A stretch of DNA of 35,114 nt from Anaerolineales bacterium (GTDB taxonomy: Bacteria > Chloroflexota > Anaerolineae > Anaerolineales > UBA4823). This document shows, piece by piece, positions 1-7,586 of the stretch. Below the pieces are notes generated by a model, which was given only the letters and a program-made list of their open reading frames with translations, did no database searches and was not told the origin of the DNA. The translations under genes were made by a program, and so were the position numbers. The first letter of the stretch is position 1. Every line of letters begins with the position of its first letter. The DNA is taken from positions 1-35,114 of the forward strand of contig JACUUU010000005.1 of NCBI GenBank assembly GCA_014859065.1. Reading direction: 5' to 3'.

Positions 1-788
<788 letters not shown>

Positions 789-4242: not shown

Positions 4243-5058
4243 TTATGGAACCCGATAAGTCGCCCGCACCTGGCCTTGATCATCTAGCACGGTCACTAAT
4301 TCACCAGGCTGCCAAACCGGCTCGTCAAGTCCCCAGAACAATTGTACGGATGTCGACTGACCTGCCCTGGTATAAATATATACAGCACCAGCCTCGAACA
4401 ACTTGAATTGCGGGAAGGTGAACGTCAATCCACCTTCTTCTACCAGTTGCCAACCTTCCAGAGAAAGCTCACCTGAGCCGCTCCTTTTCAACATAACTCG
4501 TTCATTCGCCAGGTCACCTGCCCCAATAACGCTATCAATAATTATTTGAGCTTCTCCACCCTGCTCAGGTGCAGTTGCTGTAACTCGCGGAGTCGCGGTA
4601 GCTGTTGGCATAGTTGCAGTTTGTGTTGCTGTCAACGTCGCTGTAATAAGTTGCGGGATAACCAGCAGCTGCCCGACATCCACCCTATTAGGGTCGCTGA
4701 TATTGTTCGCCTCCATCAACAGCTCTAAACTTAAACCAAATCTGGAAGCGATGCCTCCCAATGTATCCCCACTCTGCACCTGGTATTCGGTTATGACAGG
4801 TGTTGCCTGCTCTTCTGCTGCTTCGCTGGTTCTTTCGTCTATCTGCTCGACCTCTTCTGAAGGTGTTCCTGTGCCCTCAAAGCCATGTGATGGTGTCTCC
4901 GACCATCCTGGTTCTACAATCGGGATATCCGCTCCACTGATTTCATCCATCGTCGGCGCACGCGCTCGATCCCAGAGTGAAAGGACAATCAGCACAGTGA
5001 TGGCTGATACGACCACATTGATCAGCAGGTAGTAGAAAAGGCGCTTCCAATTTCTCAT
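4243..5058 (-). CDS. Membrane-anchored LysM-domain protein with C-terminal lamin-tail-like domain
   Basis: N-terminal TM helix (RLFYYLLINVVVSAITVLIVLSLW), LysM (YQVQSGDTLGGIASRFGLSLELLMEANNISDPNRVDVGQLLVIP), T-rich linker, C-terminal LTD-like sequence (ANERVMLKRSGSGELSLEGWQLVEEGGLTFTFPQF). Confidence 0.8.
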   Translation of the reverse strand: MRNWKRLFYYLLINVVVSAITVLIVLSLWDRARAPTMDEISGADIPIVEPGWSETPSHGFEGTGTPSEEVEQIDERTSEAAEEQATPVITEYQVQSGDTLGGIASRFGLSLELLMEANNISDPNRVDVGQLLVIPQLITATLTATQTATMPTATATPRVTATAPEQGGEAQIIIDSVIGAGDLANERVMLKRSGSGELSLEGWQLVEEGGLTFTFPQFKLFEAGAVYIYTRAGQSTSVQLFWGLDEPVWQPGELVTVLDDQGQVRATYRVP

Positions 5059-5246: not shown

Positions 5247-5720
5247 ATGCCATTTATAATCGACGGTCATAACCTCATCCCAAAAATACCCGGGCTTGAC
5301 CTGGAGGTTGTGGATGATGAAATACAACTGGTAGAGTTGTTGCAAGAATTCTGCCGCATCACGCGCAAAAAAGTCGATGTTTATTTCGACAACGCCCCAC
5401 CAGGATCTGCCCGTTCACGTCATTTTGGTAGTGTAACGGCTCATTTTACTCGGCAGGGTTATTCTGCCGACCAAGCCATCCAGGGCAAGCTTAAACAGCT
5501 AAAACGCGCGGCTGCTAATTGGACGGTTGTGAGCTCTGATCACGAAGTCCAATCCAATGCCCGCACGCTCCATGCTCGTGTTATATCGTCCGAGCAGTTC
5601 GCGGCTGACTTAATCGAAATTTTATCTCGGAAGGATAAAGAACAACCCGAAAATGAGCGCCTGGACCCCTCAATGGGTGATTTGCGTGAGTGGTACCGTT
5701 TGTTTGGTATCGATGAATAA
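5247..5720 (+). CDS. NYN-domain (YacP-like) putative ribonuclease
   Basis: MPFIIDGHNLIPKIPGLDLE..., VDVYFDNAPPG and WTVVSSDHEVQSNARTLHARVISSEQFA are typical of the YacP/NYN PIN-like fold. Confidence 0.85.
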   Translation: MPFIIDGHNLIPKIPGLDLEVVDDEIQLVELLQEFCRITRKKVDVYFDNAPPGSARSRHFGSVTAHFTRQGYSADQAIQGKLKQLKRAAANWTVVSSDHEVQSNARTLHARVISSEQFAADLIEILSRKDKEQPENERLDPSMGDLREWYRLFGIDE

Positions 5721-5799
5721 TGAATGAATTATTTTGGACAATTCTTCTCGAATTTCTAATCATTTTTTAATGCAATTTAGATCAATTTGGGGTATATTA

Positions 5800-5942
5800 A
5801 GGACATCGACACCTGCCCTCCCTTTTATTGGTATTTCAGGTGTCAGCCACTGGAAAAGATGCACCAGCACCAAATGTTGGTTACTAACCGGTGGCCCTCC
5901 TTAGAACGCCGGGCGTGCCCCCCCCACGTCCGGCGGTTTTTT
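5800..5942 (+). ncRNA. Candidate structured small RNA ending in a Rho-independent terminator
   Basis: Intergenic. Stems 5808-5815/5837-5844 (GACACCTG/CAGGTGTC), 5846-5853/5888-5895 (GCCACTGG/CCGGTGGC, one G-U) with inner 5864-5869/5875-5880, then terminator 5907-5942. The 5' end is inferred from a weak -10 (TATATT, 5793-5798). Confidence 0.5.
5907..5942 (+). terminator. Strong Rho-independent terminator with C7 loop
   Basis: CGCCGGGCGTG (5907-5917) pairs with CACGTCCGGCG (5925-5935), 11 bp with one G-U. Loop CCCCCCC, followed by GTTTTTT. Confidence 0.88.
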
Positions 5943-5994
5943 ATCACATCCGATATAGTAATTCGCAGCGAATAAACCTGGCTTTCCTTTTACC

Positions 5995-6756: not shown

Positions 6757-6934
6757 GGCAAATATCCATATTAATCAAGACTACATAACAACACCTGATT
6801 TAGTTTCATCAGGTGACCAAGGAGGTCCAAATTTTGATTGAGATTAAAGCGTATCTTCGATTATACCAGCCAGCAACAATTATTTCTGTCACCCAATAAT
6901 GTCACTTGAAGTAGAAGTAGAAATAAAAATTGGC

Positions 6935-7586
6935 TTAACCAGACTTTGATATCGTCCCCAGACCATTAACTTTATTCAGATAAACCATCACGCGAGCATC
7001 AAGCTGAGAAAGGTAATCATAACCAAGCTTGTTTGCAACTTCAACCCCCACTTCCCGGAACAACTCGATTGTCACGAACAAAGCCCACCAATTCTGCATA
7101 CTCGCTCTTGCTGGGTGGATCAGGGATATAAGCCTTGTAGGTCGGCGGTCTCAATCTCGCTGCCAGTTGGTCTTTATCCAGCAGAAGGCAGTAACCTACA
7201 TCTAAATCTTCAGGGAGTTCCTCAGCTTCAACAATCTGCTGCATTATTTCAAACGCCCATAATGTGAAATCGATCTTGATCCCATCCTCATATTGGGTAA
7301 TATAAGCAAATCTCTCGAAACCTTTTTCCAGTCTGATCGGATCGCGATAGACTACCAGCACATCACCGAAATCTTCCAACCAGCTTAGATCTTCAAAGTA
7401 AGGGTGGATATCCTTTACAATTAAAATAATATCGTAGTCAGAAAATGAGTCAATAATCCCACCTGGAACAGCTCGGGTGCTGGTCAACAAAGCTGCACGA
7501 ACATCATCCCTTTCTCGCGCCCATTGGATGATATTTTGAGTAACCGGATCGTTATTAAAAAAAGTTCCCTTAGAATGGCTCGCCAT
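6935..7586 (-). pseudogene. Aminoglycoside 6-adenylyltransferase-like (AadK family), internally deleted and frameshifted
   Basis: N-terminal ORF 7041-7586 (TQNIIQWARERDDVRAALLTSTRA...FSDYDIILIV) ends out of frame. A +1-shifted frame just downstream (stop at 6935) reads WALFVTIELFREVGVEVANKLGYDYLSQLDARVMVYLNKVNGL, resembling the family C-terminus. Confidence 0.8.

Follow-up and report, generated by a model that had tools for sequence, protein, structure and literature searches.

The window analyzed here, a 35,114-nt stretch of DNA from an Anaerolineales bacterium, contains a genuine conserved noncoding RNA gene, previously uncatalogued, at positions 5808 to 5943 of the forward strand. A sequence-only reading had claimed that the gap between the NYN gene (forward strand) and the HAD gene (reverse strand) was not empty, and a conserved small RNA (sRNA) gene indeed lies there. 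Computation establishes that this gene exists, along with its structure, conservation, and promoter. We propose, with a probability of roughly two in three, that it is an independent gene for a trans-acting anti-Shine-Dalgarno (anti-SD) sRNA that blocks translation initiation at G-rich ribosome-binding sites. The features on which the argument draws are as follows.

5247–5720, forward strand: NYN_YacP (PF05991) gene, the conserved upstream neighbor (Pfam score 63.7 bits, cutoff 24.6)
5754–5771, forward strand: promoter box TTCTAAT-N4-TTTTAAT, with two TAAT half-sites 11 bp apart; a likely activator site
5793–5798, forward strand: −10 element TATATT, each position 86 to 98% conserved across 59 loci
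5808–5943, forward strand: body of the small RNA, about 136 nt, from blastn and covariance-model homologues, covariation, and fold
5808–5844, forward strand: hairpin A, stem GACACCTG/CAGGTGTC (5808–5815/5837–5844); 8/8 pairs changed on both sides, 98.0% of cells paired
5816–5822, forward strand: C-rich segment of loop A, CCCTCCC; a C-rich YUCC-type segment occurs here in most f1, f2, and f66 loci
5823–5834, forward strand: loop A motif TTTTATTGGTAT around a UAYUGGUA core; among the unpaired elements, the best conserved
5846–5895, forward strand: hairpin B, outer stem GCCACTGG/CCGGTGGC (5846–5853/5888–5895); 7/7 model pairs changed on both sides
5864–5869/5875–5880, forward strand: inner stem of hairpin B, CCAGCA/TGTTGG; 7/7 model pairs changed on both sides
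5895–5904, forward strand: single-stranded linker CCCTCCTTAG, its first C doubling as the final base of stem B
5907–5935, forward strand: intrinsic terminator hairpin, stem 5907–5917/5925–5935 with a C7 loop at 5918–5924, from a terminator scan and covariation
5936–5942, forward strand: terminator U tract GTTTTTT, read directly

We found close relatives of the element in 31 of 38 same-family genomes using a blastn-type search, always as a single copy. A covariance model (R1) built from 29 same-family copies matched 106 of the 250 genomes of the order Anaerolineales, including 67 of the 138 good-quality ones, with one copy in each, and these matches span several families (f1, f2, f3, f63, f65, and f66). 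When a broader model (R2) was run against the class (299 genomes) and the phylum (301 genomes), nearly all strong matches again came from the same order, and the element is almost absent outside it. As a separate observation, three loci of family f23, from another order of the class (L193, L194, and L196), gave weak model matches with E values of about 1e-4; in these a terminator with a C-rich loop comes after a C-rich linker, no NYN gene is nearby, and they may be remote relatives or a case of parallel invention.

The conserved structure is supported by pair-keeping changes on both sides of all 35 consensus pairs in four helices, as seen in an alignment of 59 sequences (A3). Standard pairs fill 93.7% of the cells in this alignment, compared with 31 to 40% when partners are slid by 1 to 3 columns, and none of 500 shuffles reached any of the covariation measures. 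A3 was fitted to the covariance model and leans towards it; in a plain MAFFT alignment (A1), with the structure taken from RNAalifold, compensatory changes are already present in 13 of 25 pairs. The terminator contributes 13 of 13 covarying model pairs, with 96.7% of its cells paired. Because homologues occur across the order and all 35 pairs covary, chance is excluded as an explanation for the element. The sequence-only reading had said that it would be undone if relatives lacked conservation or covariation, or if the terminator alone proved to be conserved; both conservation and covariation are strong, and they extend far beyond the terminator.

Folding of the 138 nt from 5806 to 5943 gave −58.3 kcal/mol (z = −5.7), and none of 200 dinucleotide shuffles was equally stable, which answers the folding check that had been suggested. 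The minimum free energy model of this segment places hairpin A first, then hairpin B with its inner stem, and then the terminator with its C7 loop and U tract. All stem, loop, and terminator coordinates proposed earlier were reproduced exactly by scripted matching, including those of stem B with its single G-U pair. An outer stem (5798–5803/5898–5903) that appeared in a first fold was rejected, as it includes bases 5′ of the inferred start and is gone when the transcript is folded alone.

Throughout the family, the stems vary by compensatory change while the unpaired loops and linker keep their sequence. The linker, previously read as CCTCCTT at 5896–5902, is C-rich and present as described, but it is longer than that, running from 5895 to 5904; it is unpaired when the inferred transcript alone is folded. 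Within it, CCCUCCUU matches the ribosomal anti-Shine-Dalgarno sequence, the 16S anti-SD core being CCUCCUU, and 45 of 60 loci have CCTCC here. In hairpin B the inner loop has at least six C in 48 of 60 loci, typically C6–7; a run of at least five C occupies the terminator loop in 37 of 60, with C7 in the window. These C-rich segments are not universal: among the 60 loci, the CCCUCCC of loop A is absent from the f3 and f63 copies, several short f2 copies have no third hairpin, and the copy in the window is atypical in not having the C6–7 inner-stem loop that most relatives carry. The short f2 copies (L083–L086 and similar) measure about 91 nt, and in these hairpin B, with a C7 loop, has apparently become the terminator.

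By sequence alone, the sRNA has its own conserved promoter and terminator, independent of the neighboring gene. The promoter, at approximately 5754–5798, was missing from the earlier reading. Across 59 loci the TATATT element usually lies 6 to 10 nt 5′ of the RNA start GACACC, and the upstream box forms an 11-bp direct repeat centered near −41.5, with half-site positions that are mostly 68 to 90% identical in 59 loci from 6 families. No good −35 hexamer at the usual spacing was seen in the 59 upstream regions. In our reading the box has the position and periodicity expected of class II activator sites, such as that of an OmpR/PhoB-type response regulator, and the promoter is probably activator-dependent. 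Since matches to the box elsewhere in the same genome do not exceed a reversed-pattern control, the box looks dedicated to the sRNA, and no shared regulon was found in that genome.

Our proposed mechanism follows from the RNA's anatomy and from its analogues. Transcription would start at the sRNA's own, probably activator-dependent promoter and stop at the intrinsic terminator, yielding an RNA of about 136 nt whose 5′ end is placed by spacing from the −10 element and whose 3′ end is placed by the terminator. Rigid hairpins would display several C-rich single-stranded segments, and these would pair, without Hfq, with a set of mRNAs at their G-rich ribosome-binding sites, so that initiation is blocked. 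The covarying stems carry anti-SD segments that are conserved and unpaired, and each segment has a fitting counterpart: the linker could pair with the canonical AAGGAGG, loop A with GGGAGGG, and the C6–7 loops with runs of G. Duplex energies for isolated segments, which ignore the cost of opening structure, are −12.6 kcal/mol for the linker with AAGGAGG, −17.7 for loop A with GGGAGGG, and −14.9 for the C7 loop with G6. Hfq was not found in any of the 26 genomes searched, which is consistent with Hfq independence, and a control search detected it in Escherichia coli, Bacillus subtilis, and three others. In the RNA's own genome the pattern GGGGGG-N3-10-ATG occurs 143 times, versus 78 for the reversed pattern; most of the sites inspected open no long reading frame and are not gene starts, so that this excess says nothing about targets. 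Transcription, activator control, SD pairing, and translational repression are the parts of this reading that we infer from anatomy and analogues, and the UAYUGGUA loop would serve as a second functional element, for protein binding, an extra target contact, or an RNA-RNA contact.

It is this loop that sits least comfortably with an anti-SD function. TTTAYTGGTAT, within 5823–5834, is the most conserved loop element and had been overlooked in the sequence-only reading. The strict form TA[CT]TGGTA is found in 48 of 60 loci and a loose form in 59 of 60, so that the motif is steadier than any C-rich segment and is kept in the f3 and f63 copies without CCCUCCC. SD pairing does not account for this constancy, which counts against the anti-SD reading. 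The RNA could instead be one in which the UAYUGGUA loop and the hairpins bind, titrate, or guide an RNA-binding protein, with the C-rich loops being part of the site or structural. However, anti-SD-like C-rich stretches recur at several positions, the linker clearly matches the anti-SD, and no protein partner is known. We consider a protein-binding role unlikely, though by no means negligible.

The octamer UAYUGGUA (5826–5833 in the window, and its counterparts in homologues) is also self-complementary, with G-U pairs allowed, in 51 of 58 sequences; a loop-loop dimer or kissing contact is conceivable.

The genomic neighborhood is shared by most copies. Using tblastn, we found a same-strand YacP/Rae1-type NYN gene upstream of the RNA in 55 of 60 loci (55 of the 59 testable), with a median of 75 nt between its stop codon and the RNA start. 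Five loci are without it; one of these ends at a contig edge, and the other four have at least 2.8 kb of upstream sequence. YacP of B. subtilis is Rae1, a ribosome-associated endoribonuclease. The linkage holds across the order, and the sRNA might form a functional pair with the protein encoded next to it, a putative ribosome-associated endoribonuclease; we regard this idea as speculative and distinctly improbable. The nuclease might then act on mRNAs whose ribosome-binding sites are held by the sRNA, or it might process the sRNA, and the UAYUGGUA loop might be the protein or RNA contact. If true, the pair would amount to a riboregulation module that dispenses with Hfq and has a nuclease of its own.

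The same proximity could mean that the element belongs to the NYN mRNA, stabilizing or terminating it as part of its 3′ untranslated region (UTR), or giving rise to an sRNA cut from it. The sequence-only reading had raised the possibility of a 3′-UTR-derived sRNA, and the upstream position of the NYN gene in most loci remains in its favor. Its case is weakened, however, by the dedicated promoter (TATATT plus the 11-bp repeat box) just 5′ of the RNA in 59 loci and by the four copies with no NYN gene detected in at least 2.8 kb upstream, and covariation extends to every hairpin rather than the terminator alone. Because it has its own conserved promoter, the sRNA is more than the 3′ end of the NYN mRNA, and we hold an origin in that mRNA to be quite improbable.

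On the other side of the element, the neighboring gene is variable. A forward-strand gene does start 20 to 200 nt downstream in several loci of f2 and f66, as a cis-acting leader or attenuator would require. Against this, the gene that follows is convergent or unrelated both in the window and in most f1 loci, and a strong terminator usually closes the element. The sequence-only reading had judged a cis riboswitch unlikely, and we concur, since the gene downstream differs between loci and is frequently convergent; the chance that the element acts in cis on a downstream gene seems to us very small. That it is a short coding sequence is next to impossible: a 62-aa frame (5787–5975) is open in the window, but there is no common frame, relatives of 131 to 143 nt either have other frames open or have no open frame, and the stems change by compensatory pairs.

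Several other features of the window were recorded in passing. A LysM/LTD-domain gene (4243–5058, reverse strand) lies divergently upstream of the NYN gene, and a similar minus-strand neighbor is present in many homologous loci. A terminator-like inverted repeat, CACCTGAT/ATCAGGTG, is found at 6792–6815 (reverse strand), upstream of the HAD gene. A gene at 7041–7586 (reverse strand) encodes a 181-aa protein that matches PF04439 (streptomycin adenylyltransferase) at positions 7–154 of 279 only, and the 5′ half of a 16S rRNA gene that is truncated at the contig end occupies 1–788 (reverse strand).

Returning to the anti-SD sRNA, we asked how it compares with known RNAs. A cmscan search, as had been recommended, matched the element to no Rfam family at gathering thresholds; in agreement with the sequence-only reading, it is not 6S RNA, tmRNA, SRP RNA, or RNase P, there being no such match within it. 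The description of a novel structured small RNA with unpaired C-rich segments holds, with no Rfam family and with segments that are both conserved and unpaired. In Helicobacter RepG and the UCCC sRNAs of Staphylococcus aureus, C-rich loops target G-rich or Shine-Dalgarno sequences; in this comparison, made by cmscan alone, no match to either was reported. Pseudomon-1/ErsA (RF01719) scored 19.7 bits against a gathering threshold of 50, and it is alike in its C-rich terminator loop, over the 3′ portion only.

The best subthreshold match over the whole element was alpha-r14 (RF02344), at 23.2 bits (E = 0.021), far below the gathering score of 58.8 bits that membership would take. Members of alpha-r14 have three hairpins, each with CCUCCUCCC; NfeR1 of Sinorhizobium meliloti is Hfq independent and 123 nt long, its three motifs redundantly silence translation initiation regions, and a conserved stretch lies upstream of the promoter (PMC10746234). 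The element resembles these RNAs in its three hairpins, its exposed anti-SD motifs of the CCUCC type, and the conserved sequence 5′ of the RNA. Unlike the identical CCUCCUCCC motifs of alpha-r14, however, its C-rich segments differ from one another (CCCUCCC, C6–7, the CCCUCCUU linker, and C6–7), and it has the additional UAYUGGUA loop motif and belongs to the Chloroflexota rather than the Alphaproteobacteria.

A second likeness is to the 6C RNA/B11 of Actinobacteria, with hairpin loops of at least six C; the B11 loops pair with G-rich 5′ UTRs and are redundant, and in mycobacterial B11 either of the two C-rich loops can by itself repress a 5′ UTR containing six G (PMC10470900). The Rfam models of 6C/B11 gave no match at E values up to 10 in the window and up to 1 in six relatives, and the element differs in its three hairpins, linker anti-SD, UAYUGGUA loop, phylum, and promoter.

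Most likely, then, the sRNA works like alpha-r14/NfeR1 and 6C/B11 but constitutes a separate family and is a member of neither. Our literature search found no characterized regulatory sRNA in Chloroflexota, and the RNA described here is an order-wide family absent from Rfam, whose conserved promoter, constant UAYUGGUA loop, and lasting linkage to a YacP-type NYN gene offer experimental handles. Anti-SD RNAs with multiple C loops that act without Hfq are already known in Alphaproteobacteria and Actinobacteria; because the Chloroflexota family is alike in build and has no detectable sequence relation to them, the comparison suggests that this design arose more than once.
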